Shown here piece by piece: positions 18,909-62,942 of a DNA stretch of 64,000 bases. Position numbers and translations under genes: made by a program. This DNA comes from Apteryx mantelli (taxonomy: Eukaryota > Chordata > Aves > Apterygiformes > Apterygidae). Under the pieces are notes generated by a model, which was not told where the DNA came from, searched no databases, and saw only the letters and a list, made by a program, of their open reading frames with translations. Each line of letters begins with the position of its first letter. The stretch's first letter is position 1. The stretch is taken from the NCBI RefSeq assembly GCF_036417845.1, contig NC_089980.1, forward strand, positions 41,042,501 through 41,106,500, in the 5' to 3' direction.

Positions 18909-19210
18909 AATCACAGAATCACAGCGTGGTTGAGGTCGGAAGGGAGCTTTAGAGATTATCTAGTCCAACCCCACTGCTCAAGCAGGGTCACCTAGAAGAG
19001 GTTGCCCAGGCAACTTTTGAATATCTCCAAGGATAGAGATTCCACAACTTCTCTGGGCAACCTGTTCCAGTGCTCAGTCACCCTCACAGTAAAAAAGTTT
19101 TTCCTTAGACAGAATTTCCTGTGTTTCAATTTGTGCCCATTGCCTCTCATCCTGTCACTGGGCACCACTGAAGAGTCTGTCCCCCTGTCCCTCTTTACAC
19201 CCTCTGCTCA
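18909..19210 (-). mobile_element. CR1 LINE, 5'-truncated copy
   Basis: The left edge reads TCACAGAATCACAG, the reverse complement of the typical avian CR1 3' end. It is followed by GGTTGAGGTCGGAAGGGAGC and TAGTCCAACCCC, then the antisense of the terminal part of the second ORF and the 3' UTR (CCCATTGCCTCTCATCCTGTC near 19138). CR1 elements integrate by target-primed reverse transcription and are usually truncated at the 5' end, as here. The copy reads leftward and is moderately diverged. It is among the best evidence that this is bird DNA. Confidence 0.92.
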
Positions 19211-19935
19211 CATCAACTCACATGGTATTATGTCTGCTCCTTAAGTGGATAACTTTCTGGCAACCAAAGACCTTTCAAGATCATATGATCTCAGATCATT
19301 CAGGTTGGAAAGGAGATCAGGGGGAATCTCAGGAGGTCTTTAGTCCAACCTCCTGCCCAAAGCAGGAGGAGCTCAGCTATAAGACCAGACCAGGTTACTC
19401 AGGGCTTTATCCAACTGGGTCTTGAAAACTTCCAAGGATGGAAACTGCACAACTTCCTTGGGCAACCCGCTCCCCTGCATGACTATCCTCATGGAGAAAA
19501 AGGTTTTCCTTATATCCTGAGCCTGAACCTTTCTTGTTTCACCTTATGTCCATTGTCTCTCATCCTCCCACCATGTAGCACTGTGAAGACCCTGGCTCCA
19601 TCTTCTCGATAACCTCCTCATAGGTACTGGGAGGCTCCTATTAGCCCCCCACCAAAGCCATGTCTTCTCCAGGCTGAACAAGCCCAGCTCCCTCAGCTTC
19701 TCATTGCAGGGCAAGTACTCCAGCGCACAGCCATCTTGCTGGCCTCTGCTGAACTCGCTCCAGTTTATCGATGTCTTTCGACTGGAAGGCCCAAAACTGG
19801 ATGCAGTATTCTAGATGTGGTCTAATGAATGCTTAGGAAAGGGGGTAATCACATCTCTCAGCTTCCTGGCTATGCTCCTGGTGACACAGCCCTGGATACT
19901 GTTGGCCTCCCTTGCTGCCAGGGCACACCGCTGGC

Positions 19936-20226
19936 TCATGCCCAGCTTGCTGTCTGCCAACACCTGCAGGTCCTTTCCTGCAGAGCTGCTCCCCAGCCCA
20001 TTAGGCCCCAGCCTGTATCATTGCAGGGGCTCTTCCTTCCCAAGCGCAGGACTTTGCAGTTGTCCTTGCTGAATTTCATAAGGTTCCTGTCAGCCCATTC
20101 CTCTATCCCATCTAGGTCCCTCTGAATGGTGGTCCTGCACTCAAGCAAATCAACTGCCCCTCCCAATTCGATGTTATCTACAAACCTGATGAGCAAGCAT
20201 TCAGTTGCCTCTTCCAGACCATTCAT
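19936..20226 (-). pseudogene. CR1 reverse transcriptase remnant, C-terminal part
   Basis: The minus-strand frame contains ELGGAVDLLECRTTIQRDLD and EEWADRNLMKFSKDNCKVL, the conserved stretch after the catalytic motif of CR1 reverse transcriptase. The active-site segment that is normally FADD reads FVDN, so one catalytic aspartate is lost. The frame breaks downstream, and the upstream part continues in another frame. The family copies its own RNA at the target site; this copy cannot be active. Confidence 0.88.
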
Positions 20227-20420
20227 AAAGATGTTAAAACAGGACAGGTCCCAAGATAGACCCCTGCAGTACTCCTGTTCTTAGCAGCCTCCAGGTAGAG
20301 TATGACACACCAACCACTACTTTCTAAGCCTGACCATCTAAAACAGTTTTTTACCCATCTGGTAGTCCATCCATCCAAACCATCATGTCCTAACTTAGAT
20401 ACAAGAATATTGTGGGAGAC
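20223..20420 (-). pseudogene. CR1 reverse transcriptase remnant, middle part, other frame
   Basis: The frame just upstream on the minus strand reads SHNILVSKLGHDGLDGWTTR and WVKNCFRWSGLESSGWCVI. These are the CR1 segments preceding the catalytic motif. Next comes a degraded GVYLGTCPVL, which in intact elements is GVPQGSVLGPVL. The change of frame between this piece and the downstream remnant shows an indel. Confidence 0.85.
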
Positions 20421-20462
20421 TGTCAAAAGCCTTGCTGAAGTCATGGTAAAATGGCTGCCAAG

Positions 20463-23400
20463 AAATTGCAGTATGAATATTTGTGTTAATAGTTACATAT
20501 ATTGTATTTACATGTTTGTGCGTGTGTTTGTGTGTATGCACACACTCTTTTTAGGGAGACTTGTGAACCACTGTGGACTCACAATCTAAGAGCCAGTCAG
20601 TGTGGTAGTGATGTGAATTTGAGAGTACAGTATCTAGAACATCTACTCAGTTGTTTTCCACTTTATGGTTTCCATTTTACCTTTGACGAGGATTTTTTAA
20701 AGCAACTGTCTTTGTCCTTACATCCAGCTCCAGCTCATGAGTCAAACAGAACCTCTGGATTTGACTGATTGAGCTATTTCTATCCATAAGTCATTCTCTG
20801 AAGATTTTCCCTCTTCTAACTTCAAAAGGAATTCTAATCTTTTTAACCTCTGCTTTCCCCACTAAATATCAAACATATGGTCCACAGGAGATATGGACCA
20901 CCAACAAATCAGGAAAGCTCATAGACTTAGCTGAAAGAATGGATCTGAGTGAGCCACTCCAGTAGAACAGCATTGGCTCCATGCCTGGCCTGCATAGGCT
21001 TGTCAACATAAGCAGTATGGATCCCTGGTACCATCCGCTCTGTGTATATCTAGGCTTAAAAACTAAACAAGAACTCCAGCTTCAGTAATCATGTACTTGC
21101 TACTGACGCCATGCTCTGTCCTGTGCCTGTTGTCCCATCTCCTGTTGTTTGGAGAAGCTGATCAGAGAGAGGTTTTCCCCAGCAATTAAGAGGTGGGAAG
21201 GTGGAAAAAGAAGTTGGGTGTGCTCCCCATCATGTCTCCTTCTTCTGGCTGGCAACATTATTGTTCTGATGAAGTCAAGGATATGCTCTTAGAGCTGCTG
21301 GGTGCAGAACAGGGCCAGACATGAAAGAAGCAGTGTTTTGGCCATTTTTTAATGGGGTTGGGGAGCTCACTCTCTCAAAGCCTTGAGCCACTCAAGAAGG
21401 ATGGTGCCTGAAGGATCTGCTCTGCTGCAAAACTGGAGTCATTCCTCCCAGTCCCTGAGTGGGTGCTACTCAACTCTGGTACAGCCACACTCAAGACTAT
21501 GGTTCATAATGGGCAACACAATACAGACCTGCGGTGCTCTGAGGTAGGCACTGAATTGTAACTAGCTGGACAGTAGAGGCTTTTTGAAAGTCTGCTCCTT
21601 CATTCATCAGGGAACTCCCATCCAGATGCTGACTGTGGCTCAAAACAATTATACACAAAAGCTGGTGCCAGAGCAGCCAGAACTGGTGCTATAAGGCAGG
21701 CCTCATCCCTCTTTACACCACACAAGTTTCCCAAACCCCATGCCTGGGGATTTCTTCTACTTTTCCCTCCTTGGACAACATTGGGTATGTAATGACACCC
21801 AGCCAGATAACTACAGGAAATAGTTTTTTTCAGACTAGCCTGTCAGCTTGCACTTGAAGACCAGTATTGGCCAGTGTGCTAGAGATGCACTTGCCTAGGA
21901 GTCAAGCAGTGCTACAGTGATGAAATAAAGCAAGTGAAAATTATCACACACCAACAATGCAGAGGTTGATACTGGCATCTGACATAGCCAGTGCAGCTTG
22001 GGTGAGCTGATGGCTGTGTGTTGTTTCTAGTTGATCGTCCACTCAAAATGCACGAAGGACCTTTATAAACATGTGGCTACCCCCCCCCCCCCCGCCCCAA
22101 CAGCAACTGTCATGATAATTACTGTTTCCATTTGCCAAGAGTTGCAGTAACTAGCCTAAGGGCATCCCTTGAGTTGTGTCAGAGCCCTGTGTTCTGACTC
22201 CTGGACCCCTGAATTTTCCGTGCAATTAGAAAGACGGCAATCCTTCCTTTACCACTTCCATGACACAGCACTCAGTGACAATCAGGCAATTACCTGAGTG
22301 GCTTAATGAACCCTCTGAAGCCCTGGGGAGAATGACTGAACTTACTGGTGGATTTTCCCATCTTGTTTTCTGGCAGACAGAAAAGACAATCTCTCGTAAG
22401 GATCTTAGCTGTAAATACAGCAATAGCAGCCTATTTGGGTGGGAGGAGAGGCGATTTCATTGTACAGCCTTCCTACCCATGCAAGGATGTATCTGCATTA
22501 AGCATTCACTGTCTTGAACTGGCTGACCTGTATGTACTCTCTTTTCCTTCCAGGACGGCATCTGCACCACTAGGTTTCAGTGTCAAAGATGCTATTTTGC
22601 AAACAACTGATGATGTTTCCCACATTCAGGGAAGGGTCCTGATCTTTTTGTGCTGGAGACTGTGAATGGTGTCCTTGCTCCTGCTGTGACGTGAGTGTGG
22701 TGTGCCTGTTGGACATAGTGCAATGATGGTCAGGAAATCCTGGGAAGCCAGAGGTGTTTATGGCATGCCGTAGATACTGGAAGGTTTTGCCTGAAATATG
22801 TGGCCAACAGGAGGGAGTCAGAACCCCCTTTGCCCTCGCTATCTAAAGAATGTCTGCTCCCATAGCCCAGCCTGTGTTGCCATGGAGACACGGTCTGCCC
22901 TGATGGCCCTTGAATTCTGATCATTTCAGTGAAAATAATTTGAAGCAATCAGCAGAGACACGGGGCTTGCAGTTACACATACATCCGCACAAATACACAT
23001 GCTCCTGCAACCATCTTCTTTGTGCCATGATTTCTATGAGCAAGCAGGCAAGCTTGCTTGTAAAACACAGCAGCATGTCAGCCAGCAGGGATGGTTACAA
23101 ACATGGCTTTCCCCAGCTCAGATTAGCAAGACTTCCTCCTGCTGCTTGGAACAATGTGTTGTTACCACAACACAACATCAAGTTGAATAAGAAAGCCAAG
23201 TTATATCCACCCAACCTTTAAAACTTTCACCTTCCCTTCACCAATAGACTTTTCTTGTCAGGTTCAAATTATTTGCCTCTGAGTGCTGGAAGAAAATGTT
23301 TCTCTGTTTGCCTTGTATTTATTTGCTGCCCATCAGAAGGTAGTTCTGGTAAGCAAACATCAGGGGGTTCAAGAAAATGACATTGGCCTGCACTAAAATG

Positions 23401-26266: not shown

Positions 26267-26407
26267 GGAGGAGAAGAGAAGAGAAGAGAAGAGAAGAGAA
26301 GAGAAGAGAAGAGAAGAGAAGAGAAGAGAAGAGAAGAGAAGAGAAGAGAGGAGAGAAAAAAAAAGAAAAGAAAAAAGAAAAGAAAAGAGAAAAGAAAAGG
26401 AAAAAAA
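26267..26407. repeat. Purine microsatellite (GAGAA)n with degenerate A/G tail
   Basis: From about 26271 to 26350 the sequence is nearly perfect repeats of AAGAG, about sixteen units. A decayed A-rich purine tract then runs to 26407. One strand is all purine. The long lysine/arginine/glutamate frame on plus and the serine/leucine/phenylalanine frame on minus are only translations of the repeat. The length probably varies between individuals. Confidence 0.97.
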
Positions 26408-29400: not shown

Positions 29401-30350
29401 CTCTCCCCTGTGGGATTCACCTGGCAGAATCCTCCTTCCTGGCAGTGGCACCAGGAAATGATGAGGAAATGTCCTCAAAAAAGCCCCCATAGTGGGGCGG
29501 TTTGGAGTCCTGTCCTAACGAGAGGTTTTGCAAATCATCTGCTGGAGTCATTGCAAGAGGATATCACAGAATAACTGCCTTCTGCTCAAAGAATATGTTT
29601 TTTAGCTTCACACTAACCTTTATTTTTCATGGGGCTGGGTGACATTATTAGCACCAGTGCTTACTGCTGAAGTGAAGCATCTTTGTTGTAGCGTGGGTGG
29701 GAGATGGGTTACAGTCAATATGGAGCAGATCTAGAGAATGGCTTCTGTTATTTACTTTTTTTCTGTTCTTGTAGGACGTGTGACACTGTTTAAAAAGATC
29801 TGCTCAGTAGAATCCAATTAAAATCTGACTTGTCACCCAGGCACCCTTGGGAGATTTTGCTTGCTTCAGCTGTGCTGAGCACACTGCTATTTCATCAGTC
29901 CAGCATGAGCCTGCTCCAAACGGATGGTCAAAAACAAGGCACCAGGCTTAGGGAAGAACAATGCAGTGAAAATACTTGTTTTGCTGAGATGTCCAAATCA
30001 AAACGTTCCTGAGAATGGTGGAGATGCATCATCTATATCTCTCATTTCCCTTTAGTGCCCATCCAAGCAGAGGGAGAGCAGTGAGGAGGCCCTCAGCGGG
30101 GAGCTGGGACACAGCCACGGCCTCTTGCCCCACCCCACCGAGCCGCCTTCTAGCTCAGCGCAGGCTGAGAGTGAGCGTTTGTAAAAAAAAGCTCGCCGCA
30201 AACCAGCATACAGGGAAGTCTGTCAGCAGAAAGCGAGCAAGTAGCAAAAATCCCCCTCAGCAGTACGCGGCTGGTGACCCGGTCAAGCCGAGCCGGGGCT
30301 GCCCCCGCTAACGGCAACAGGCCGCAGCAGTTGAACCGTCACCAACATCC
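26408..30350. other. Non-coding stretch left of the tRNA-Sec gene
   Basis: About 4 kb without a convincing exon or young repeat. Open frames on both strands are below 130 codons and lack domain signatures. CpG content starts to rise after about 30,080. Confidence 0.5.
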
Positions 30351-30358
30351 GCGCTGAC

Positions 30359-30362
30359 AAAA
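30359..30362 (-). terminator. RNA polymerase III terminator of tRNA-Sec
   Basis: On the minus strand a TTTT run begins 15 bases after the end of the mature tRNA sequence. A run of four or more T on the non-template strand is the normal Pol III stop. The short 3' trailer would be removed by RNase Z before CCA addition. Confidence 0.85.
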
Positions 30363-30376
30363 GCTACAAACCGCTC

Positions 30377-30463
30377 CGCCCGAAAGGTGGAATTGAACCA
30401 CTCTGTCGCTAGACAGCTACAGGTTTGAAGCCTGCACCCCAGACCACTGAGGGTCATCCGGGC
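30377..30463 (-). tRNA. tRNA-Sec (UCA), selenocysteine tRNA
   Basis: The minus strand reads GCCCGGATGACCCTCAGTGG at its start and ends TTCAATTCCACCTTTCGGGC plus the discriminator G. It is 87 bases long, the usual size for vertebrate tRNA-Sec, and nearly identical to the mammalian gene as I remember it, with C instead of T at position 11. The anticodon TCA (plus-strand 30426-30428) lies in CTTCAAACC. The long variable arm and B-box-like GGTTCAATTCC (30389-30399) are intact. The RNA is charged with serine and phosphorylated by PSTK. SEPSECS converts the product to selenocysteine, which EEFSEC delivers to UGA codons of mRNAs with a SECIS element. I see no defect that would make this a pseudogene, and the complete upstream promoter supports function. 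The vertebrate gene is usually single-copy. Confidence 0.98.
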
Positions 30464-30485
30464 AATTAGAACTCCGGCCTCCAGC

Positions 30486-30495
30486 GCTATATAAA
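30486..30495 (-). promoter_or_regulatory. TATA box of the tRNA-Sec gene
   Basis: TTTATATAGC on the minus strand covers positions -32 to -23 relative to the first tRNA base at 30463. Vertebrate tRNA-Sec uses an external, U6-like promoter in which TATA at this position specifies RNA polymerase III through TBP and BRF2. Confidence 0.9.
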
Positions 30496-30507
30496 CCCCC
30501 GGAGTTG

Positions 30508-30530
30508 CTAAACCCAAAGCTTATGGCGAC
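30508..30530 (-). promoter_or_regulatory. Proximal sequence element (PSE) of tRNA-Sec
   Basis: The minus strand contains TCGCCATAAGCTTTGGG, which fits the YYACCNTAA-type core of the vertebrate PSE with one mismatch. It spans about -67 to -45. The spacing to the TATA box and to the start is as in U6 and mammalian tRNA-Sec genes. The PSE recruits SNAPc. Confidence 0.85.
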
Positions 30531-30679
30531 CAGCGTTGGTGGTGCCGCGCGCTTACTTTCTGCCTTCGACCGCAAATGGACACCCCCCCCCCCCCCGGGG
30601 ACCGCCGGGGCGGTGTCGCCCACGGGGCGGGAGGGGTCCTGCCGCTGCCGCCGCCTGGCCAGAAGCGCCCGCGCGCCGT

Positions 30680-30687
30680 ATGCAAAT
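30680..30687 (-). promoter_or_regulatory. Octamer in the distal sequence element of tRNA-Sec
   Basis: A perfect ATTTGCAT octamer (plus strand ATGCAAAT) lies 217-224 bases upstream of the tRNA start, where the distal sequence element of snRNA-type Pol III genes is found. It binds POU2F1 (Oct-1). A GATTGGC (inverted CCAAT) follows at about 30699-30705. I did not find a clear ZNF143 site beside it, although that element is common in distal elements. The same octamer could also serve a divergent Pol II promoter in CpG island 2. Confidence 0.8.
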
Positions 30688-31455
30688 ATGAGGGCGGTGA
30701 TTGGCTGCCGCCCCTCCCCGCGGGGAGCCGAGGCGGAAGGTGCCGGCGGCGGGCTGAGGCGGGGGGCGGCCCCGGGGGCTCCGGGAAAGGGCCGTGCCGT
30801 GCCGCTGGCGGCGCCCCTGGCCCGGGGCGGCGGGTGACTCACGGCCCTTCCCAGAAGGAGCGGGGCCGTGCCAGCAGGGCTGCCTGCGTGCGTGTCCGCC
30901 GCCGGCAGCCGCCCCCCGCCCGCGCCGCCCTTCCCGGATCTCCGGGGTCCCTTACAACATCGGCCGCGGCGGCTTGTGCAACGGGCCGGGGGCGCCCCGC
31001 CGCCGCGGGCGAGGCCTGTGCCCGGGCCCCGCGGGCGGGGGGACCCCGCTCTGCCCCGGTAACGGGGCCGGGGGCCGGCGCGGGCCTGCGCTCCCCGAAG
31101 CGCCGCGGCGGCGGCGGCCCCCTGCCGCCGGGCCGGGCCGGGCCGGGCGCGGCTCCCGGCGCGCTGGTCCCCTGGCGCCTGGCGGCGGAGGAGCTGTCCC
31201 GGGCGGGCCTTCCTCCCTCCGTCGGCGTCTCGTGAAACGCCAGGGAAGCGGGGGCTGCTCGTCCGTGTGCGCGGCGCCCCGCCGACGGAGCTGGTCTCGG
31301 CCTCGGCCTCGGCCTGGGTCCGTGCCCGCGTCCGGCCGGGAAGGTTTCACCGGCTTGGGCTGAAACGGGAGGCCGGCTCTGCGTGGCCAGGCTTGGCCGG
31401 GGGGGTCCCTCCTCGAGTACTCAGCCAGTCGGGCAGCGCTCGGGGTACGTTATGA

Positions 31456-34400
31456 GCGTCTCGGGTGTGCGAGAGCCCCCGGCTCATTCTTAGTGGGGGG
31501 CTGAAAGCGTCCTCGGCTGTTGAGCGAAGGACGGGAAGGAAAGGAGTGAGCTCGTTACCAGTCCCGAAGCGGGACTGCCACAGTCAGGTCGGGCAGTCTG
31601 GTGAGTACCGACTGCGTGTGGGATTGGAAAACAGTCGGCTTTTGGGAGCATGCGAGCGTGGAAGCAGTTTACCTGGCAGCAGAGGCAGGGAGCCGAGTGC
31701 CGCGCCTGGGCTGCCCATCGGATCTGGGGCAGATCTGCGTTACCTCCCCCTGCGCCCGTCTCCCGCGCGTGCTCTAGCACCATTGCCTCAACTCAGGCCT
31801 CTAGGCGCTGCGCTGGCATAACTAAACATTTGGGCTGGATCCACGGTGTGACCGCTCATTTTCTGTGGTCATTTACCCCAAGACAGAACACAAGGCAGTG
31901 CAGAATCAGGCTCTTTGTCTACTATCCAGCACATGTAGTGTTGCTGTGACGCTTCTCTGTATTTCTCTTACTCAGACCTGCTTCCCACATACATTAGTTG
32001 CCAGAGTACAGGTCCACATTTTCTCTATCAGTGGGGCTGCCCAGTTACTTAAGAGCATATAAATATGACACACAGTATTTATCAGAGGAGAACAGAGCAA
32101 TAGCTCATTTTGAGAAGTATCTTTTTTTTCTTTTTTTTTAGTGGCTAATGCCAGATACTTTGGAGGAAGACATGAGTCTCCCATGAGATACCTTGCAGAA
32201 CAATAATATCCTCTGGGAGGAAATTCCTTCCTGACCCCCAGCTGAGTATCAACTTATGCCCTGAAGTATGAGGATTGAAAACACTTGTAATTTTATCCTA
32301 GCGAGTGTAACTATGGAGGCTATTTTCATAAATGTCTAAACCCTTAAAAAAATTACTAAGTTATTTGCCTCGAGAGATTTCTCTGAAGTGGAGCCATTTC
32401 TGCAAATGCATGTGGTTTCCAGTGATTTTTAATTAGATGATTCTTTTTGGTGTAAGCAACAAATAAAACCATAGGCCTATTCCCCCCTCTTGCTTGCCTC
32501 AGGGAAGTTCAGACTTAAAACTGGTAGTCAGTGCAATAACACCAGGGTAAAACTGGTACAGAACAGTACTGGCACCTCAGCCTGAAGTTGGAGCAGTTTT
32601 GTGGATGTCAGCAAAACAAAGCAAACAATATATGGTGGGGCAGTATTGTTCCCACTCACATCCAAGCAACTCTGTTGGACACACAGCTTTGCTTTCAGTA
32701 CATTGGTTTAAGCCATGAATTACCCTCTTGGAACTTAACCAGCACTGGTATCATCTGGCCCACTGACTTCCAGACACATGCACAAGTGTATCTGAGGACT
32801 TATTGTTTGTAGTGAACAATTTCTTTAGCAACTTAAATGTGATTTTTAAAATGCATTTTTAACTCTTCAACCCAGAAGTAGGGTTTTTACCAGAAAGAGC
32901 TAGTTGGAATGCTGCTCCTGTTCCTTGCTAATATCTGACAGGAATCTTTCTTCTCTTCTCTGTTTTTTAGAGGGCGTGTCCCCCCTGTACATTACTGTCT
33001 CTTTACCTGATCCTTATGCCAGTAGCAGGTGGCATAATATAGCAAATTTCTTTTGACATAAAAATGCACAGGGTGAGGAACTGGGGGTGTGTGTGGGAGG
33101 AGGTACAAGGAAATTAGTCATGGGGAGGAAGAGGTTAGCACGGGGGTTTGAGGAAATCAGGTGGCCGCAGCAATCCCTCAGTCTTCCAACCAACCCTGTC
33201 CTGATGTCTTCTGGGAGAAACACGTCAGCTCAAAGATATGTTCCTTTCAGCCCAATGGCATGTGACCTTGCTGACGGATTCAAGCTGAACAAGAATGGCT
33301 GCCAGGAGTTGGAGGAGAAATTCCTAGCTCGTGTATTTCTTTTTTTAAGTCTCGGCTTTAAAAACTCTTTCACTTTCTCTTTGCTTTCCTCTCTAGCATC
33401 TACCTTTTCTGGATTGTTTCCACTGCAAAGAATCACTTCAGGGGAAGGCATGCTTCTTAGTGCGAAAATATCACACTCATCTCTCTCTTGTGGTCCCTCA
33501 GTTTTTTAAGCAGATGCATCTATCTTTCTTGTCTGCTGATCAGTCTCCCTGTGCCTTCCAGAAAAAAAAAACTATGCCAATTATTCAAGTCCAAATGAAA
33601 AATAATGGCCGGGCAAAATACTCCAGCCAACTAACCAAAGGATCCATTGGAAAGGCCAGGTCCTAACACTGCTTAATTTGCAGTAAAGGGACATGCTGAG
33701 ATAAAGAAGGCAGCAGTTTTTAAAGATCAAGCAGTAGAGGAATGTGCAAGAAGAGGGACAGGCAAAAATACAGGAAATGATGCTGGACCTCAAAGTTGAT
33801 GGGAAAGTGGTAGCAAAGAAATTTTGAGAATTTTCTCCTTGACCGGATGCCAGTCTGTCTAGGTTCAGACCTACTTACAGAACGGAAGTTGTGTTAGCCA
33901 CTAACTTCCCCAGCAGTGGTTGAAAATGACATTTCCAAGACCTCTGTGCATCTGTTTTTTAAAGGCCTTTGCTACCTCTGACCCGTGAGGGGCTGGTGAT
34001 GGGTTGCTGCCCCTGCCAGAAGCTGGTGGATTACCTGGCAGAGGTGCTGGTCTCCTCCTGTGCGCAGGGGAGAGCAGGTAGCTCCAGGAAATAGTTAGTG
34101 CAGTACCTCTGAGGGTGCCAGTTTGTCTCAGCTGCTGCTCAATGTGTTTATGAGCTCCCAGGCACTGATAAGGAATCAGTGGGTTGTCTGCTGTCTGCAG
34201 GTAAGATTCATCTCAGCTCCAGCCCTAACTAACAATACCGAATGTGTGACTGGGATATGAGAACCAGGCTGATGCATATGACAACTAAAGCCCCAGACTG
34301 TTATCAGGGGCTCATGATTTACAACTAGATTTATAAGACTACTAAAAATGCAAACAGATACATACTGAGACTTTCAAAAGCATGTAAGTTAACAGACCTG

Positions 34401-34600
34401 TTGTTATCAAAGGCTCCTCAGCACCTAATTTTCCTTTAGACATTTTTTTGGAAATCCTTTAAACAGCTTCATCTTTAGACCAAGTGTCTTTGAAAATCTT
34501 ACTCTTTGCCATTAAAAATACAGAATAAATTCAGTTTATTGGTTTAATAATGGAAAAAATCCCTATTTCCTTGGTAGTGCTCTTAATTAAAGCATTTCTC
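31456..34600. other. Non-coding stretch right of CpG island 2
   Basis: Composition falls back to AT-rich by about 31.85 kb. I see no coding exon. If a Pol II transcript begins in CpG island 2, this is likely its intron. Confidence 0.5.
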
Positions 34601-34795
34601 AGTGTCTTTGGACCTGATTTTCTACCTTATGCATACAACTACACTATGCCAAATGGATGCAAAGCGCTGCCAATTTAGGTTTGATTCAATGCCCATTCAA
34701 GTTAATGGAAATCCTCCCACGGAAATCAATGGGATTTGGTTCAGGCCCCAAAGTCAATGGGGAATTCTGATTTGGCAGTGTTTTACACCTAGGCT
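34600..34795. repeat. Ancient amniote interspersed repeat, class uncertain
   Basis: The stretch has the phrases GCCCATTCAAGTTAATGGAA, GAAATCAATGGGATTTGGTT and CAGGCCCCAAAGTCAATGGG. This kind of alternating CCATTGA/TCAATGGG wording occurs in many old repeat copies in birds, turtles and crocodilians. It contains partial inverted symmetry, consistent with a non-autonomous DNA transposon. I cannot name the family without a library search. Confidence 0.45.
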
Positions 34796-37700
34796 GCACA
34801 ACTATAAGCAAATATTCAAGGTACAAAGCCTTGAAGAATTTGGGGTTTTGTAAGTGGCTTCTGGGGCAACCCATAGCCTAGGGTATTTAAACAATTTGTA
34901 ATTCCTGAAACTGTCCACCAAGGAAGGCTTAAAACAGATCAGTCAGAACTTTTCCCATTAGTTTTTTTAAACACTCTTACCTCTTTTGCTCTCAAGAGCA
35001 AAAATATGCTCTTGATTTTTTTTCCCACAGCCTGACAACATGTAAGCATCTTCAGCACTTTGTTCTTATTTCTTTTAACTACCAGGACCTGATTTGTATC
35101 AGGAAAGATAAGCCTCGATCCCTACTGTATTAATAAATAATTATTTGTTGTAAGGTGGGGGATGAGAAGGGCTGTTATTCTTAGCAGCAGCAGCAGCAAT
35201 GAAATTTCAGCAGCTGATGACGTCAGTGCTAAAATGTCAGCGTGAAACAGACTGGAACAAATTAAGAGGGTAGTGTCGTCACTGTGAGGGCCACGCTGCC
35301 CTCTGGAGGGACTGTGGTTGGATACTGCAGATGCAGTTCAGGAGATCGGGGACAGAGGCTTGTGTGAGCTTCTCAGAAGCATTCAAAAAAGCAACAACAA
35401 TAATCTCCGTCTCAGAAAGGTCAAAGAAGGTGCTGTTTGAACATCCCCGCCCACTTCATGGCGTGAGCTAACAGTGAGGGAAGGGCTGTGTCTACAAACC
35501 AGATTCCAGGAACTAGTACAGAAACAACAAAAAAAAGTCAAATTGCCCATCTTCTAGTCACTTAACAAGCTGGGCTAAATCCATCTCTGATGTCACTCCT
35601 GTGACTCAAATCAAGGAGGAATTTGGCCTGGGATGCCTTTTGTCATGATGCGTTTATTAAGTGAAGGTCATGTGCTTGGAGTAGAGGTGATCCTGAAGCA
35701 TTTTATTACTTAATTTACTGAGCTATTGCATTTGAAGAATGTCTTCAGGCTATCCAAAAATGCTGAAGTCAAGGTGCATAAAGCTTTAATCAAATAGGGT
35801 AAAATTCCAGAACAAATGCATTCATGCTTGTTCTCGAAGAGTCCCTTTTTGCACATTTCTTGGCTAGTCTTAGAAGGTGGTGTTGTACCCACCCTGCCCC
35901 AGTGCAGGGCATGGACACTGGCTGCGAGGTGGTGTCTTGGGGTCCCCTGGAGGCCTGCATCTCCCTGGTTCTGCAGAGAAATTGCTGAGTCTGCAGGGGT
36001 TGTTGGGCTGTGGGACATGCTCTGGTCTGAGGGGGTTGTGACCATCCTGCCCTCTTTCATGAAGATCTGCACAGTTTTTCTGTAGAAATATGGAAAAGGC
36101 TTAGATTCACTGGATCACTCTTTCTAGAAAAGTAGCATTGGTAACAAAACTACTCTGTGTTGTTTCACTTCTTTATAGAACTGCTGTTGTAGTGTCTGTG
36201 GAGATGATGTAGTTACAGCAGACAGAGGAAAATACATTCAGACGTGCTTATCTATCAATCATACCAGCTGTTTCTGGCATGTGGCAACTGGCTGACCACA
36301 GTAAGGAAAAGAGGATGTAATCAGTTAGCAAAAGCACTCCTTTCTTAGCAAGGACGATAAGGATTACTGGCAAACTCACAGAGAGTTACGGGAATAGAGG
36401 AATTGGTGTACTGAAGTCACTTCCTACTACCCGGGAGCCCCTGTGCTCTGAGCATTGTGTTTGCTTTCCTATTATGGATCTAGGGGTTTGTCTGCATTGG
36501 TTCGGACTTGTAAGAGCACTGACCCTGTCTCGGCAGACACAAAACTCTCTCAGAGATTGCTGTAGTCTTTTATTGAGTTTTGTGGGGAGGATCCAGGCTG
36601 ACTGTGAGCAGTGAGAGTGATTCTTTGCCACATCTCTACACCAGCAAAACACCTTGCTGCAGAAATATTTGCAAAGAAAAGCGTAACTTAATCAATTGAG
36701 GGAAGAGGTGCATGCCAACAGAAACACTCTTTTGCCAATATAAACTGCACTGCCACTAGAGCGGTTGGCTGGTGAGTATCAGCAATGCCTCTCTTTTGTC
36801 AACGTGGGCCACGGCTTCACTGATTAGGTGTTGTACCAGCAGGCAGGATAGGAGGTTCTCAGCCAATGAGATCACTCAAGGCTTTGCACCTCCGTGTGAG
36901 GGGAGCCCCAGATCCCTCATCTCAAGAGGAAGCAGCACCCATTTCAGCTGCACCTGTATCAACAAAGAATTTATATGAGCTGGATGCGAGATCCTGAATG
37001 CATAGCTGGTTGCTGACGCAGTCCTTTGATGGGAAAGTTGTGTGCTGCGTTGTACATGGTCGACATAGGTCTCACCATGTGGCGATGCCTAGGGAGTATC
37101 TGATGTCTTGTCAGGGGTCTTGTCATGTAGCTTTGAGAGTGCTCCCACTCTAGCCCTGCATGCAACTAATTGCAGTCTAGCACTGAGGGTAGGAGAATGC
37201 TGCTAGAACAAGGCCTCCTTACCAGGAGGGCTGGAGAGGCTTGAGAAGGATGAGGCAGATCGGGTGCCATAAAGAGCGTGTTGTTCTGCAGTCAGCATCT
37301 GAGCTCTAGGTATGTGATCAGTAAAAGCAGGAAAGGCAAAGGTTTAATGCTACCTGTGCTGCATCTTGCTTAGTCCAGATTTACTAGAGCTTTGGCGATA
37401 CAGGAATTAAATGTCCACATAAGGAAAAAAGACTTCTACTTTTTGCTAGCTTTTTTTTCTTTTTCTTGCTGTGAAACTAGTCCCTAATCTGAATCACTGA
37501 CAGAGAGTCAGTGGAGACAGAATGATTTTTTTCTGGATGCATTTGTAAATATCTGTCTACATTTCTAAGACTTACCACCGTAGGATATCCAAGATGATCT
37601 GTGATTTCTGCAATTTCATCTGAGAGAGCAAGTGAGTGATTCCATGTGGTAGAGACATACAGCTCATGACTCACAGCCCTGAGTCACAGCATTGGGACAC

Positions 37701-38059
37701 TTCAGCATTCAGAAACACTAGTAGTGACAGAAATCAGTATGATGAGCAAGCAGCTGTTACTCATTCTCAGCTGGACACTGTAAGCATGTTTGTACCAGTC
37801 AGTATGGCTCTGGCTCTTCTCTGTCTCCTCTTGCAGACCTGCAGTCATCTGGATAGCATGGTGACATAGCTCACTTAACATTTGCCTCTGGGCAAGAGAT
37901 GATCAAGTCTAGTCTCTGGTTCCCAGACTGTCCTGCTTGACTCTGTTAGTCTCAGCATAGAGCTATCATGGTAATTTTCACTTTAGATTACTTCTTTCTT
38001 TCATCTCTGGAGATCAGCTCACTTTACAAACATGAATGCATTGATCTGTCACATGGGGT
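34796..38059. other. Non-coding stretch with minor relics
   Basis: No gene is supported. A (CAG)n-like AGCAGCAGCAGCAGC lies near 35186-35200. At about 35571-35632 a piece beginning GGGCTAAATCC and ending GGAATTTGGCCTGGG has imperfect inverted ends and may be another copy of an old palindromic repeat. Confidence 0.45.
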
Positions 38060-38212
38060 TAGAAAGTACCTGTACCCTATTTTATAGCTGGGGGAACTGA
38101 GGCACAAAGCATATAGGTAACTTGCTTTTTGTGACAAAGGAGATTGGCAGCAGGGCCAGGAAGAGAACCAGAAGTCTTCAATACCTCACTTAATCTTTAA
38201 CCACTGAATCGT
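38060..38212 (-). repeat. MIR SINE relic
   Basis: This is a clear antisense MIR. GGGGGAACTGAGGCACAAAG is followed by AGGTAACTTGC, GGCAGCAGGGCCAGGAAGAG and then TCTTTAACCACTGAATCGTA. These correspond to the MIR blocks GAAACTGAGGCACAGAG, TAACTTGCCC, GGCAGAGCCGGGATTCG and TTAACCACTATACT in the right order. Confidence 0.85.
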
Positions 38213-39007
38213 ATGCTCCATTCCATCCATCTTTTCCTCATGAGGTGGCAGCTTTGATAAAAACAAGAGCCCAGGAAATCACCCTGTTTATTCTATCTTG
38301 GCCTCTTAATGCCTGTGAAACTTTCTTTTTTAATTGAATTCTTTTCATGACCATCATCTTTGGTGCGGGAAATGATTCCAAAGGACAAAGACTTCGTTGT
38401 GTGTGTGCACGTGTGTGTGTGGTCGGGAGGGAGGAAGAATAAAAAATCCATTTCCAGATGGTTGAAAGGATGCATAGCACTTTGCTATTGGCAAAAACAA
38501 CCTCTTTCATTTTCAGGATATGTAAGTCGCAGAATTGCAGCTGGAAAAAAAAAAGGCAGAAAGAGAAGCAGGGAGATAAAAATAAGAATTACTAATGAAA
38601 ATTAACCCAGTTGATTTTTGAAAATCCAAATGCTTCATTTTTATTTAAACAGGGGTAAAATGTGCTTGCTGAAGATGATCTTTGTAGAGCAGGTTCAAAT
38701 ATGTATCATATCATTTTCTTGTTAGCTTCTTTGCTTTCCATTCCCAACTCTAGCCTCACAGGAAATTCAGTCCCTGGCAAGCTTCAGCTCCAGACAGGAA
38801 ACATTCTGAGGAATTTCTTCCATACAGGTACTATATTTGCTTGGAGGGATAACATGGTGGAGATATTTACCACAGCTGGATTTAACTAGCAGGATATTAT
38901 ACATGTTGATTGAGTTGCTGGGCGTGATCTCTGTCTGCAGTCACCAGCATGCCATGTTTAAACAAATCATACTGCTCTGCCTGCCTGTGGGAAGATATGC
39001 ATCAGAT
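38213..39007. other. Non-coding stretch
   Basis: I see only a short TG-rich tract (about 38397-38422) and A-rich runs. No exon is supported. Confidence 0.5.
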
Positions 39008-39101
39008 CTGGGCCTGATTCTCCTTCCTCTCACAGCTGCACGTCCCAATTTATGTCAAAGATATTCACTGATGTAAGACAGTATCAGAGAATCAGGTCTA
39101 T
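39008..39101. mobile_element. Short palindromic MITE-like ancient element
   Basis: The element opens with GGGCCTGATTCTCC at 39010 and closes with GAGAATCAGGTCT at 39087-39099. These are inverted copies with an 11-base exact core (CCTGATTCTC and its complement, with one flanking mismatch). Between them are CCAATTTATGTCAAAG and CACTGATGTAAGACAG. Such short elements ending in GGGCCTGATTCTC are scattered in reptile and bird genomes and look like remains of non-autonomous DNA transposons. The family name is not certain. Confidence 0.6.
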
Positions 39102-39540
39102 GCAGCATGTTTTTATCACTTGACAAATTTGGTCTTATGCTATTTGCATGCACCTAAGCAGATATTTTGATAGGAGGACTGACTGGGAAGGAGTGCAGGC
39201 TTAGGCCTTTTGTTCACAGATGAAGAAGGCCCTGCTCTTGCCTTTGCTCTCTGAGGGGACCAAATATTGAGAGGAGTGAGCTGTAGCACCACACTGCCTT
39301 TCAGATGAGTTAGAGGTACTGAGTGTGACCTGGTGACACACTACCTTCCTGCAGCCTTTGGTATTTTCCTGTCACTTTGGACATTTTTCCTCCTTTCTCT
39401 GCAAGTTCAGAGCAGGCCTATTCTGCTCATTAGTTCTGAGGAGATCACAGCAGTCTTAGGCAGCTAAAAAACAAGTACCAGATCTCAGTTGGCTGCTTTT
39501 CGGGGTAACTTAAGAATCATCAAAGAACAGGTGGACTGGG

Positions 39541-39581
39541 TATTTCTCTTGGGTAGTTCCTTAATGTACCCAAGAGAAATA
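39541..39581. repeat. Perfect inverted repeat (15-bp arms, 11-bp loop)
   Basis: TATTTCTCTTGGGTA (39541-39555) is followed after eleven bases by its exact reverse complement (39567-39581). A second, weaker pair, TATTCCTT (39579-39586) and AAGGAATA (39603-39610), follows directly. This could form a hairpin in DNA or RNA. I see no wider precursor structure that would make it an obvious microRNA. Confidence 0.9.
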
Positions 39582-39689
39582 TTCCTTCCGAAGAATATTT
39601 GGTAAGGAATATTCCTTTCATACAAAAAAACGTGAGCACCTCCCCCCATTCTTTAATACAGTTCTCAGGATACAGGATATGTAGAAGAA

Positions 39690-39816
39690 AGATTCATGAG
39701 CCTGTATCATTGTCTCCCAAGAGAAATGTGAGGGATTAAGTATATGGCTGGGAACAATCCTGTGCTGGCAGGGAAATGGACTGTATGACCTGTCTCAAAG
39801 ATCTATGATTCACTGC
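39690..39816 (+). mobile_element. Old CR1 3' end
   Basis: The stretch ends with ATGGACTGTATGACCTGTCT and CAAAGATCTATGATTCACTG. This is the sense 3' end of CR1-type elements ('GGACTAGATGACCTC ... TCTATGATTCTATGA'). The part before it is too eroded to follow far. Confidence 0.6.
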
Positions 39817-41845
39817 AAATACACAGAGTGTGCATGAAAATGTGTAGTAACATGCACTGGTACCTTGCCTGCTATTACAGTGCAGCCTCCAGCCAGAGAC
39901 AACCCGACCACGTTTACAGGTGTGCTCTGGGAACGGGATTTTTCTGTGGGGAGCAATGAAAGACAGAAGAATGCCTTCAAAGCCTTAAAGGTCTCTGTTC
40001 CACCCTGCCAAGCCATAGAAATGTAACTGCGTGCGCAGCGCTGAAGCATGGATATTTTTTTTTTGTTTCTGGGGCAGGAAGTGCAAGTGCAGATCCTCCC
40101 ACTTAATGCTATGGGGGGAAGAAAACATTCACAGACTCCCCTGCAGTGTTAGTGAAAATACAGCTCTGGCCTTTAGTGCCCTTTGTTACATAAACACAAG
40201 TAGTGTAGACATATTAATCACCCTGCCATTGAGGGAGGAACAGAGCAGCAACCTCAAATGCCACCCACTCCCCATTCTCGCTCCCATTCGATGTTGCTAT
40301 TTTAAGCCACACATTATTTCCTGCTGTGATTTTATTTTTTTTACCCAGCTTCTAATTCTGGCTCTGAGGTAAGCTGTGACATACGTATCCCTCCTCTCCC
40401 CCTCCCCGCCCTCCTCCTCCCCCTGCACCCACGTCCTCTTTATTGCTGCCTTTTAGAAATTCTCTCTCCATGTCTTGTAGGCAGCCAGGTCCCAAAGGTT
40501 AGGTATTGACCGGCTGTAACAAAAGCAAAAGGACTGATCTTCCTGCTTTTGGACTTAAGGGCAAATGGTATCGGGGCCACAGTTTGCAGGACAGACTGCT
40601 TTAAAAGCACTGTTCCCCTGGGTCCCCATCCCCAGAGAGCTTAGGCCCTCAGAGAGGATAGTCTTGCTAGGAAGAGAAGGCTGCTGCTCAGCAGCTAGCG
40701 ATGGGTCACGGCCATGGCCAGTGTACTTCTCCGATGAAAGATGGTATTACACCAGAGCCGTGTGCTTTGCAGCACAGAAGAGAGAGGACAGAGTTCAGCT
40801 ACTGTCTGAGGGGTTTCTCTCCTGAGCCTGCTTCTACAGCGATGGTGAGCAGGTTTCTAGCCCCCAAGTCAAGCTGACTTGTGTCACCACACAGGGCAGG
40901 CAACTGCCTCATTTTGCCTCTGCCAGTTAGCAGTCTGTGTCTGTCCTGTTCTGCTGTGCACATGTGTCTCCTGTGGCTAAGAGCTGCAACCAGGTCAGCC
41001 CTGAGGAAGCTTGTAACTGTGTCAGTCTAGGGCAGAAGTACGGAGTCTGCAATCCCAGGAAGGGCCCAGTGCAACCAGGCAGAGGTGGCTCTATTCCTTA
41101 TGCGTGTGCACTGTGATAAGAGCTCTGCTGAGGTAAGTTTGAGCCCTAAGAGGAAATGTGAGGCCTGCTTCTGCACCATAATTGAGGAACATTACAAGTT
41201 TATCCTCTTTGACACCCACTTTCCCCTGTCCTCCCTGCCAAGCAACCTGTCCTGAAAGTCTCTGCCTGGATGCGCAGTGCTGCAGACACATCCCTGCTAG
41301 AATAACAGTGCAGGCTGGGCGGCAGGCAGGCTGCTGGCAAAACCTGGGGCCTTGCTTCCAAATCGCAGAGGACAGAGAAGTCTGGGCTGCCCTCAGCTAA
41401 CCCTGGTGTATACATTTCACACAAACAATCTCACGCCTTTCCCTTCCTGTGAGTTGCTTTCAGAGCTGCTGCACGTGGCCTTTGTCAGCCTGGTATTAGC
41501 AATAGCTGTAGGAAATCCCAGGCTGGGCGTCTACGTGTTCTTCATCCTCCCCTTCCCCAGATAAGGATTCCTGTTATGCCCTTGCTGAGGTTCCCGGAGA
41601 GGGGGAGAAGTAGAGAGAGCGAAAGCAAGAAGGCCTTTGCCAAGTGGTTTAATGTTAGTCACAGCTGCTGGAAGTCTTTGCTGTGCTCTTACCAGGACCG
41701 TTATTTTTATTTTCACAGCTTGGTTTCCATGTCAGTCCCTAGAGAAGGCTGGGGATTCACATCTCTTCCCAACAGCGGCTACACGCTAGCTTTGTACATT
41801 TGCACAGTTTGTCATTTGTTTTGAAGTAGCAAGGAAAGCACTCAA
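39817..41845. other. Non-coding stretch
   Basis: No gene is supported. A C/T-rich tract (CCCTCCCC units) lies at about 40390-40435. Open frames are short and unrecognised. Confidence 0.5.
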
Positions 41846-41849
41846 GCCT

Positions 41850-41935
41850 GCAGTGCTAGGCAACAGTCCTATCTTAGGCCAGATCCTGGCCCTCAAATCC
41901 TTGCCTGCAAAGAGCTTACAGTTGAATCAAGCATC
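41850..41935. repeat. Possible L3/CR1-like ancient LINE relic
   Basis: The phrase GCAGTGCTAGGCAACAG, followed by GCCTGCAAAGAGCTTACAGT, resembles the old LINE 3' region reading 'GTGCTAGGCACTGTACA ... CCCAAAGAGCTTACAATCT'. Only two short blocks match. Confidence 0.4.
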
Positions 41936-44900
41936 CAACTTTCCAGTGGAAGGAAGGGAGGGGAAAGATCCAGACTCACAAAATGGAGTGATCACACCAG
42001 AATAAAATGACTGTTTTTCCAGCATATTGTGTCCCCATGTGCAGCTATTTTAAAAGTTCTTGCAGAATAACTTATCCCACAACAGCAATGCTGGAGAATT
42101 TCCCCTTGGAGACAAGTCCTCAGAAAGGATTCTAGTAAATTGTCTTCACAGAAAATCACCCTGCTCTCGATGTCACACCCAGTGCTGTTCAGTAGGAACC
42201 AGTCAGCAGCTGACTGGCGTTTGGTGTCCTGGGGGTAACGCGTTTGATGAGGACAGCTCTCCAAGGACTGATGCCTACACGACAGCCACCACTGCCATCC
42301 TCTCTGGCACCAACTCTTGGCACCTTGTTGGTGGTCTGTGCAGAGGAGTGAAATGCTGACTGGGCAGGAAGACTCAGGAATGGAGAAGAACAGTCTACGC
42401 TGAATGTTGCCTACTTGCTGGGACCATCCACCAGAGGCCAACACTGGTATCAGCTCTGGTGGTCACTGGAAAAATAGCAGTGCTGGGAAAGAGCCTGAGA
42501 TCTACAGATAAAATGGCTGTGGGGTGACAGTAACTGAGGGAAACTGGTACAGTATGCCATATTTGTCATGGCGTTCGAGGCATGTGATAAATAACCCAGC
42601 TTAGAGTTTGGTCAGACAATTGGACTGAATATTGAAAAAAAAAATTTTTTTTAAGAGCCAGATAGATCTTCAATACCCACAGTTAGGCATCTGGAAATGG
42701 CACAAGATGGTGGAGACTGCATGGCCTGTGGACTTGCTGATACTGTCCACACAGCCCCAAAGTCTTTCTTTCCTTGCACATCCTGACTTCTATGATTAGT
42801 CTTGCTTTATGCGCTCTGCACAGTGGCAACCAGATACAGAGTGGCCCAGCACATGTGGGGCAGATTTGGTGGGAGCACTGATTCAGTGAAGAGCTCCCTT
42901 GCAGCCAGCCTGAAATTGTTCTTTGTCCTGGCAGCTCTGCCATGCCTCATCTAGGTCAAGAGACGTGGCTCAGAAAGACATTCCCTGTGAGCTCTGATTA
43001 GATCTGCTCCTCCCAGGGCCCTTCAGCTGGGCTTGCTCCTTTTTCTCATTCCACACAAGGTTTTAAAAGACTGTGTTTGTAAACACCAGTCTCCAACTCG
43101 CTGCCTCCAGGGCTCTGGGCAGAAGGCCAGGGAGGTATCTAAGAGACGGCAGACAGTTTTAAGAGGCTGCGGCGTCCCATCGCTGCTTTGGAGAGGGCAC
43201 GCCTTGCAGTTAATAACCATGGTGGCGGGAGTCACCTACAGCACCAGCAGGTCTCAGCACTATTTCCTGGCTCCCTGAGGCTGAGCTTGGGCTTTACTGA
43301 AATGACCTCCTCACATGCCAAGGTAAATTCTGGGTCTCTCAAGCTAGCTCTGCTGGAATTAGTGGGGAGCTAAGCTGTGCTGCCTCAAATGTATGTCTGA
43401 GGTCAGTGCTCTGAGACAATAAACAATACAGTGGACATGTGTTTGCATTTGACACAGTGCTGGTTAAATATTCACTCCCTTCCATCTCTCCTTCCTGCAG
43501 ATCACTTCAGAGAGCCTGGTCACATTCATGGACTTGGGCACTCTTGACCTAGTGGGGAGACAAGGGCCTGCTGTGGGATAGCACCTGGTCACTGAACACA
43601 AGCCAGCGTAACTGGCAGTCTGAGGTGCCTTTTGAAGAGGGTCTGCCCAAACCTCCCATTTGAAGAGCCTCCCAGGCTCCCTTTGCCTTAATCCTTTTGA
43701 AAATTGATTAATAAATGCCACTGTTTGGAGCAGTGACAGAGCCTGACCACTGAGGCAAGGTTAGAGCCGGGTGGGAGTCAGAGCTGGGCCCCTCTCTTCC
43801 ACCAGCTGAAATGTGACTGTACAGCATTTTGTGGGTGAGAGAGATCTTCGCCCAAACACAAGCCTGAACCTGTCTGTATGTCCAGAATTGCTTCTATCCA
43901 CATATTTACCAGCAGACACATTCAGGCACAGATTTAGTTAGAGCTGTAAAGCTCCTGGGAAGGAGGGGGCCTGATGTGCTTCACAAGGTCTAGGCAGAGA
44001 TGGGAGCATCTAACAGCCTGAGTGCACATGCAGGTTTGGGGCTGAGCTATGGCTGGGAAGCGGCCAGCAGTCTGGACAGGCAGCGTGCGCACCATTGGGT
44101 CAGCCTGCCTATACCTGAGCTCATGCTTCACTGTACAGATGCCACCTTTGTGCTCTGCATCCTGAAGACCCAGAGCAGCAATGGCTTTTGTTTCCCTTGA
44201 GAATAACTCAGCAGGCCTAGGGCTCCCACAGTTTCACACCTTGCGTGACAATTTGCACCTGGGTCACGCATTACACCCCTGCGCAAAGGACTTCACAGAG
44301 TGCCTGGCAGTGGGGAATCAGGCCAGGCTGGTGGGGCTGAGAGAGAAAAAGAAAAGTCGTGGCTCCTTTAAGGGAGGAAGCAGGCAGAACTGCGAGGGAA
44401 GGGAGCACTGGAAGCTGTGTTTTTCTCTCAGCGCCTCAGGGGCTGGTTACTAAATTTGGTTACTGGGCTTAAATAATGCAGCGTGGCAGAGCCCAGGTTT
44501 GAACATTGTCATATCCACATAATCCTCTCCTAGGTGGCTGAGATCTCTTGTTCTCTGCTGCCGCTATCTGTGCAAGAGTTTGAATGTGATGTCAAACATC
44601 ATCTTAAATAATTATAACTAGCAGAGAAGAGCCAAAGCTGCAAAGTCTCATCTATTCCAGTGTGCTCTGTCTATCTATGTAATTTTTAAGGTGCCAAGCA
44701 CCAAAGCCTCCAAGCACCGTCTAATCTGGATCTGAGCTCCCTTGGTGCTCATGGAGGCTTGAATCCTAGTGTTTCATGTAAGCCCATCTCTAATTAGCAA
44801 GCATAGGGACAGAACTGCATAACGTGGGCAAATAAGCCTCCTATTGCTGTCGAGGTCTTCATGATCTACTGACTAAAAGTCCAGTGGCTGAAGGAGTCAC

Positions 44901-45854
44901 ATCATGGTCAGTCCTGGTCCATGAAGTATTGGATCCTCTTTCCATTACCACAGAGAAGGCCGGCTCTGGGGCAAGGAGAGAGAAGGCTCTTTGCCATTCT
45001 TGGCTGTGGATCCAAGCCTCCCCGTGCAGAGACAAGGAAGAAGCAAATGATAGGAACCAGTGACCCAACTTTGTTCCATGTAGGAGAAGGGGGAGGGAAT
45101 GATGTGCCCAGCTGTCCTCTTCGCTCACCTATTGCCCCATACTTTCTGCAGACTTTGGGAGGCAGATTAAAACCTGCTGGATTACCACTCACTGCTGGCG
45201 CAATGGTGAAGGGACTCACTGTACTAAAGCTACTCATCTGGAGTGAAATCGGATTAGACCTTTCCTTCATTGCCAGGGAAACAGCATTTGCCTCTTTCTA
45301 ACAAGAACCTGCCAGGTTCAGACAGTGCCACAGTATTGCAATTACTTCCCCTCCATCAAGTTGCACTTAGGAGACTGCCCACAGTCTTCCTGATTTGACA
45401 TGACACTTGACAGCAGGTTTTCATGGCAGAGGATACTCAGTAGTTACTAGGAGAGAGCCTTTCCAAATACTGTTTACAAACATCACATTTCTGTTCTTAC
45501 AAGCGTGCAGGTCCTTTACCCACTCCCCCATTGATCAGGCCTATCCACCATCCCCCGCAACTGCTGGAGTATTTTTAGTGACATTGAATAAATACATGTT
45601 AAATCTTTCTCCATTAGTGACATGTCAGAAATTAAAGTGGCATCAGCTGTAAAGCCTGCAGCTAAGCCAGCTTCTTCTAGGGCATTTGCACATGGTTGCC
45701 CAAGAGGCTAGGAACAATGGTACCAGAATTGCTTTTTCTTCAATCCATCCATATTCTCTGCACACCCTTTCCGCTCCTCTTCCCCCATAAATACCACTGC
45801 CACCTTCTCCTGTTATTTATGCACCAACCTATCCCCAAACCTCCCCAACTTTAT
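41936..45854. other. Non-coding stretch
   Basis: No exon or RNA gene is evident. An A10/T8 palindromic run lies at 42635-42652. Frames of up to 150 codons (for example 41992-42444 minus) lack any known domain and lie among overlapping alternatives. Confidence 0.5.
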
Positions 45855-45855
45855 G

Positions 45856-46030
45856 TTTGGAAAGAATCTCTGGGTCACAAAGTTTGATCCTCTCCAATCA
45901 CAGGCATCATGTCACAGAACTCCTGTTAGGTATTTCTCAAGCCCCACCTTAAAAGCAGTTGGAATTTTTTTGGCCCTCATTATGCCCACTGGATAGCAAT
46001 TCCAAAACTTCTCCAGTAGCTAGGACTTAG
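45856..46030 (-). mobile_element. Old CR1 LINE 3' fragment
   Basis: In antisense order there is TTTGATCCTCTCCAATCACA, then CTCAAGCCCCACCTTAAAAG, then GGATAGCAATTCCAAAACTT. This is the course of the CR1 3' UTR read on the minus strand (the 'TAGTCCAACC ... TTGAAAAC ... GGGCAATCTGTTCCA' order). Divergence is strong. Confidence 0.5.
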
Positions 46031-46470
46031 CAGGTAGGAACTTAACCGTATCCATAACTAAACCTTCCATCCATACCCACAACTGTCTTCATCTTCTTCC
46101 ACACAATCTCCAATCTTGTAAGCTGCCTCCTCAACTAACCTTTATCTCTGACCCTAAGCCATCCCCACTTTCTCAGTCATGCCACTTTAGTTCAAGCTCC
46201 ATCTTCTCAGACATCCTGCCTCTCCCCCACTGCTTGTCTCACTTCACTTTTCCCCTGCCACATGCTCCCCCCCCACCTCGTGTTCCCTTCTCCTGACTAC
46301 CCTCCATCCCTTTCTTTCCCTATCCCCCTCTTCAGGCTACCCCATCTCTTCAATCTCTTCCTCAGTCAGAGATGGGCATCTGTACAATCTCTGATGGTTC
46401 AGACAAACATTTATTTCTCCTTGAGTTGCCTAGGGCAGGAGCTTGCTCTCCTTTGATGCTCCTCCTTCAG

Positions 46471-46672
46471 GTACCTGGTATGGATCAGCTTGGCATCCAG
46501 AGCTGGAAGAAAAGTCTGTGCAGTGCTCACAGCCTGTGCAGCTTAAAATCGACTCAGAAATGGTGTCACAAAGGAGCATGTGGATAATGGATGAGGTGAA
46601 GCTTGAGGTAGAAGATGCTGAAATACTACAGCTATTGGCGAAGACAAAATATTTATAGCTGTGACCTGCAGG
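46471..46672 (+). other. Candidate exon, coding status unclear
   Basis: A CTCCTTTGATGCTCCTCCTTCAG acceptor ends at 46470, and a CAGG|GTGAGT donor follows 46672. One frame is open from the acceptor to a stop near 46657. It includes the acidic stretch DEVKLEVEDAEILQLLAKTK, which could be amphipathic helix. I recognise no family. The splice sites are good, so a real (perhaps non-coding terminal) exon is possible. Confidence 0.2.
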
Positions 46673-50960: not shown

Positions 50961-50965
50961 TTTTC

Positions 50966-51062
50966 GGGGGGGGGGGGGGGGCACACTTAAAATGGTCACC
51001 AGGGCTGTGTGAGTGAGCACCAGCCCCCTTGAGGTGGATTTTTTTTTTGGGGGGGGGGGGGG
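50966..51062 (+). repeat. Two long poly-G tracts before CpG island 3
   Basis: A G16 run occupies 50966-50981. A T10 run (51039-51048) joined to a G14 run (51049-51062) lies about 70 bases further on. They directly precede CpG island 3. Long G runs can form quadruplexes and are hard to sequence, so the stated lengths may be imprecise. Confidence 0.9.
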
Positions 51063-51069
51063 AGGGAAT

Positions 51070-54820: not shown

Positions 54821-54824
54821 TTAC

Positions 54825-54843
54825 GGGGGGGGGGGGGGGGGGG
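54825..54843 (+). repeat. Poly-G tract (G19)
   Basis: Nineteen G in a row are followed by AGGGAAGGGAAGGGCTGGGG, so the full stretch is a strong quadruplex candidate. The flanking sequence is ordinary. Confidence 0.92.
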
Positions 54844-62560: not shown

Positions 62561-62561
62561 C

Positions 62562-62905: not shown

Positions 62906-62942
62906 TAAAGAGCTTTGCCGTCTCAGTAAACACCCCACACCA

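Follow-up and report, generated by a model that had tools for sequence, protein, structure and literature searches.

A selenocysteine tRNA gene near the margin of a CpG island and its predicted type 3 Pol III promoter

The window, i.e. the whole stretch of 64 kb of DNA analysed here, has a G+C content of 0.463 and carries on its minus strand a gene for selenocysteine tRNA (tRNA-Sec) situated near the low edge of a CpG island. The gene is preceded by a TATA box, a predicted PSE and an exact octamer. Promoter positions are numbered with 30463 as +1, all elements being referred to the strand of the tRNA. The features are as follows:

30359-30362, minus strand: TTTT, the likely Pol III terminator, 15-18 bases past the last tRNA base (present in the sequence, its function proposed)
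30377-30463, minus strand: tRNA-Sec (UCA) with a length of 87 bases, discriminator G included (ARAGORN, Rfam and folding)
30488-30495, minus strand, -32 to -25: TATA box TTTATATA (sequence and motif scan)
30508-30530, minus strand, about -67 to -45: predicted PSE, with limits as in the earlier note (scan and spacing of the three elements)
30583-30596, minus strand: 14 consecutive G (C on the plus strand) between the distal and the proximal elements
30656-30673, plus strand, -210 to -193: degenerate SPH/ZNF143-like stretch, reversed, matching the consensus at 14 of 18 positions
30680-30687, minus strand, -224 to -217: exact octamer ATTTGCAT in the position of the distal sequence element (scan and spacing of the three elements)
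30700-30704, minus strand, -241 to -237: CCAAT motif, located 12 bases past the octamer and likewise present in 123 of 300 shuffles
about 30201-31800, no strand: CpG island with a G+C content of 0.59-0.885 and a CpG observed/expected ratio of 0.74-0.99 in steps of 200 bases (composition)

When run over the whole window, ARAGORN returned a single tRNA, a tRNA-SeC at 30377-30463 on the minus strand with the anticodon TCA (UCA) at position 36. An 87-base tRNA-Sec on this strand had been claimed in the earlier note and is borne out, also by the covariance-model comparison that had been proposed as a check and in which a low score would have spoken against the gene: Rfam family RF01852 matches 30378-30463 with 80.3 bits at a gathering score of 47 (E 6.3e-15, model positions 1-91, untruncated). 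It is the only Rfam family that reaches its gathering score. A search with relaxed thresholds added two further families that stay far under what they require (26.2 bits with a cut-off of 50 and 20.3 bits with a cut-off of 65). According to the Rfam alignment the molecule is built from a 9-pair acceptor stem, a 4-pair T stem, a 6-pair D stem and a long variable arm. Eight of the nine acceptor pairs are standard, one G-U among them, and the remaining one is a U-U that is also unpaired in the free fold. The last base, number 87, is the G discriminator (G73), which is deemed essential in a survey of tRNA-Sec genes (PMC5330540). The strand folds with an energy of -37.5 kcal/mol (z -3.10), a value equalled or bettered by 3 of 200 shuffles. 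An exact-pattern scan with the 60-base 3' part of the gene gave no match in viral contigs and none in prokaryote genome contigs, as is expected when a vertebrate gene is compared with such collections.

Past the 3' end of the tRNA, the TTTT at 30362-30359 on the minus strand agrees with the terminator claimed before as far as the sequence goes, and it likely acts as such. It is preceded by a shorter TTT at 30370-30368. A TTTT is a minimal terminator and is counted against a functional gene. Upstream, the motifs were judged against 300 dinucleotide shuffles of the 420 bases preceding tRNA-Sec. A TATA box had been claimed at -32 to -23 and is indeed present, with TTTATATA occupying -32 to -25; TATAWA arises in 8 of the 300 shuffles. 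The PSE, placed at about -67 to -45 by the earlier note, holds up in its 5' half. The core TCGCCATAA at 30521-30529 (-66 to -58) agrees with the pattern TYACCRTAA at eight of nine positions, one being a mismatch, and an equally good core is found in 14 of 300 shuffles. The 3' half is degenerate, and the canonical appearance is thus limited to the 5' half. In the U6-1 structure, SNAP190 contacts a CC-N-T spacing and SNAP50 a C-G pair within the PSE (PMC9652321). When the predicted PSE is aligned by eye on these contacts, the CC-N-T spacing is preserved, shifted one base upstream, and the C-G pair contacted by SNAP50 is represented by A-T.

A perfect octamer had been announced at -217, and the exact ATTTGCAT lies at -224 to -217. 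It appears in just 1 of the 300 shuffles; the 64-kb window contains four exact octamers on both strands taken together. With both strands considered, the window contains the combination of octamer, PSE and TATA box at this spacing just once, at the tRNA-Sec locus, and none of 40 windows shuffled in blocks of 200 bases contains it; the spacing limits were chosen after the locus had been viewed. Pairs of PSE and TATA box lacking an octamer are not rare: the 40 shuffled windows yield 32 of them and the real window one. What distinguishes the locus is the octamer together with the tRNA body, not PSE plus TATA. These observations support a type 3 Pol III layout at canonical spacing. The description of the promoter as intact goes too far in view of the weak 3' half of the PSE and the degenerate SPH/ZNF143 site. 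Two other scans are mentioned for completeness. A motif of unknown function has been reported for type 3 promoters (PMC3499247); a version with one mismatch resides at -271 but was discarded, as 69 of 300 shuffles contain an equal one. A scan for bacterial-type promoters and terminators detected nothing promoter-like and a single terminator-like site, located on the opposite strand.

The SPH/ZNF143 (Staf) site calls for separate treatment. A match as good as the SPH-like stretch is found somewhere in the 420 bases in 269 of 300 shuffles, i.e. it is no better than chance when the whole promoter is considered, whereas a match of this quality no more than 3 bases away from the expected place has a probability of about 0.03 in this orientation and 0.04 in either. 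Within 1 kb of the start, a consensus scan revealed no good ZNF143 site, the best one having three mismatches and lying downstream of the gene. The SBS2 site given in PMC7154149 reaches at best 13 of 25 identities in the 400 bases upstream of tRNA-Sec, which is ordinary for the window. Slid across the window, SBS2 is matched best by ACTACATCTCCCAGTGTGCCGCGCG at 2939-2963 on the minus strand (19 of 25, the second best site having 16). The GC-rich surroundings of this site possibly represent the promoter of a gene on the minus strand that continues beyond the left end. Under the degenerate 18-base ZNF143 consensus it shows three mismatches and is outranked by three other sites with one or two, so that SBS2 and consensus scans must both be regarded as rough. 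As the known ZNF143 sites of U6 and tRNA-Sec have no more than 47% in common (PMC7154149), a weak match is no proof of absence.

Weakness of the site would matter, because mice that lack the ZNF143 site lose about 60-80% of the transcript in the majority of tissues tested, heart and testes excepted (PMC3459062). The literature is divided on the part played by the octamer. According to a review, activation of tRNA-Sec needs a ZNF143-DNA complex and that of U6 a complex of ZNF143, DNA and Oct-1 (PMC7154149). Another paper groups the Xenopus tRNA-Sec gene with promoters whose octamer and SPH are mutually dependent (PMC2235858), and the two sources are thus in conflict on the role of the octamer in tRNA-Sec activation. 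With the octamer perfect and the ZNF143 site decayed, one might speculate that the distal element has switched from ZNF143 (Staf) to Oct-1 control in this lineage. We consider such a switch quite improbable; if it were true, the supply of selenoproteins would track Oct-1 rather than ZNF143, unlike in the textbook tRNA-Sec gene. The weak ZNF143 site, provided that it is real and lineage-wide, is the only point that is worth a second look.

The remainder of the window was searched for neighbouring genes. Pfam scans were run on 36 stop-masked translations (both strands in three frames each) covering 1-30000, 32000-52000 and about 54000-64000, i.e. all but some 4 kb at about 30001-31999 and 52001-53997; no positive control was included. 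In 34 of the 36 translations no family appeared at E 0.05. The matches in the other two stayed below the cut-offs (16.4 of 25 and 15.6 of 26.5 bits) and were set aside, as they fall on a GAGAA tandem repeat of 25 copies at 26271-26396 that gives rise to spurious hits of this kind. No domain above the cut-off, be it bZIP or reticulon as expected for FOSB and RTN2 or any other, was thus found in the 36 translations; given the missing positive control, this speaks only weakly against FOSB and RTN2 as neighbours. Ranking the open frames of the window by codon usage revealed no clear exon, and a PDB sequence search with one minus-strand frame of 50001-64000 found nothing. Broken fragments of a reverse transcriptase, recognized by translation, are spread over three frames at 19200-20800 on the minus strand and are presumably CR1-like; a protein search with one of them yielded no candidate. 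Dispersed repeat pairs of at least 45 bases, sought in the window with exact 14-base seeds, were not listed. Taken together with the G+C content of 0.463, the CR1-like fragments and the lack of listed repeat pairs point to a probable bird or reptile genome. Apart from the G run in the promoter (30583-30596), runs of 14-19 G or C are present at 22080-22093, 50966-50981, 51049-51062, 54825-54843 and 63060-63076. Some of these six runs reside in or near GC-rich stretches, and G/C runs are places where short-read assemblies may break.

The CpG island reaches about 1.1 kb past the octamer on the side away from the tRNA gene, and its far side could hold a divergent Pol II start. The octamer, possibly together with CCAAT, might then serve a plus-strand Pol II promoter of the island and leave the tRNA gene with PSE and TATA box. 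Such an arrangement would fit the extension of the island and the CCAAT motif 12 bases past the octamer, and also a splice-donor-like CTG-GTGAGTACC that we read by eye at about 31600. No coding exon was recognized on the far side of the island. The octamer is, however, at most 2 bases away from the place that it takes in the chicken 7SK promoter (-222 to -215; PMC2235858), and the combination of octamer, PSE and TATA box recurs neither elsewhere in the window nor in the shuffles. We therefore regard it as unlikely that the octamer belongs to a Pol II promoter instead of the tRNA gene. This proposal bears on nothing but the octamer and does not conflict with a functioning tRNA gene, and it is possible that the octamer is shared by both. 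Further downstream of the island, the stretch 32141-32260 follows a long pyrimidine tract and AG, as read by eye. We take it to resemble the tail of an old CR1-type repeat, possibly an exonised one.

A second alternative is that the locus represents a silent duplicate or pseudogene which retains the tRNA body and the promoter, with the working tRNA-Sec gene residing elsewhere in the genome. Human, rabbit and Chinese hamster are known to have tRNA-Sec pseudogenes, and in nine vertebrate assemblies the sole or the top match is a copy without G73 (PMC5330540). The copy described here, in contrast, has the G discriminator, scores 80.3 bits and limits its non-standard pairs in the model alignment to the one U-U. 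Furthermore, it carries its own upstream promoter motifs, whereas a copy that arose by retrotransposition, as described for human copy 2, would presumably be without them. A silent copy is therefore very improbable. A chance match or a tRNA-derived SINE is hardly worth considering and is refuted within the window by the full-model E value for RF01852, the absence of any other ARAGORN tRNA and the lack of listed dispersed repeat pairs.

The best explanation, to which we assign a probability of about 0.93, is that the locus is a complete tRNA-Sec gene, likely of a vertebrate, which is preceded by a predicted type 3 Pol III promoter and is likely transcribed and functional. Its position in a CpG island speaks for this reading as well. 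Judging from other vertebrates, POU2F1 (Oct-1) on the octamer would help SNAPc onto the PSE, and TBP together with BRF2 would occupy the TATA box. Transcription by Pol III would begin with the first tRNA base and end at the TTTT at 30362-30359 or close to it. Help by ZNF143 via the degenerate site beside the octamer is conceivable. The product would be charged with serine, converted to the selenocysteine form and read UGA in selenoprotein mRNAs. Both the gene, expected in every vertebrate, and the layout of its promoter are known, and as such the locus is ordinary.

In the survey of tRNA-Sec genes already cited, the real gene is taken as missing from assemblies that contain only copies without G73 (PMC5330540). 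Should the present locus come from a bird genome, it bears on the tRNA-Sec gap reported for those assemblies. Eight of the nine assemblies with G73-less copies are from birds. A CpG island with up to 0.885 G+C in combination with a run of 14 G is probably the kind of region that goes missing from short-read assemblies. Since a working tRNA-Sec gene is required for every selenoprotein, a clean locus is useful for annotation.

When compared with human TRNAU1 and mouse Trsp, the locus shares the UCA anticodon, the G discriminator, the TATA box, a predicted PSE, the distal octamer and the Pol III promoter located upstream of the gene (PMC3459062; PMC3499247; PMC5330540). The tRNA sequence differs from that of the human gene at a single base: position 11, located where the acceptor stem joins the D stem, is C here and T in human. 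Differences concern the SPH/ZNF143 site, which is degenerate here unlike in the vertebrate tRNA-Sec genes of human (TRNAU1) and mouse (Trsp), and the neighbourhood. The human gene is situated between FOSB and RTN2 (PMC5330540), a synteny that the scans, run without a positive control, did not reveal in the parts of the window that they covered. At human TRNAU1, ChIP-seq revealed peaks for SNAPc, BRF2 and POLR3D as well as binding of POU2F1 and ZNF143 (PMC3499247). The Xenopus tRNA-Sec gene, which is activated by Staf, has TATA box, predicted PSE and distal element in common with the locus, whereas a perfect octamer is combined with a weak ZNF143 site here. In mouse Trsp, the TATA box lies at about -30, the PSE at about -70 and the distal sequence element, an activator region with SPH motif and octamer, at about -200 (PMC3459062). 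The chicken 7SK promoter features TATA at -31/-25, PSE at -67/-46, OCT at -222/-215 and SPH at -210/-192 (PMC2235858). Octamer and TATA box of the tRNA-Sec locus agree with these positions to within 1-2 bases, the PSE core falls inside the printed PSE limits, and the SPH-like stretch starts at -210 like the chicken SPH. As differences from chicken 7SK and vertebrate U6, the SPH-like stretch reaches only 14 of 18 matches to the consensus, and the RNA product is a different one. As its positions lie close to those described for chicken 7SK and mouse Trsp, the promoter architecture of the locus is that of the textbook.
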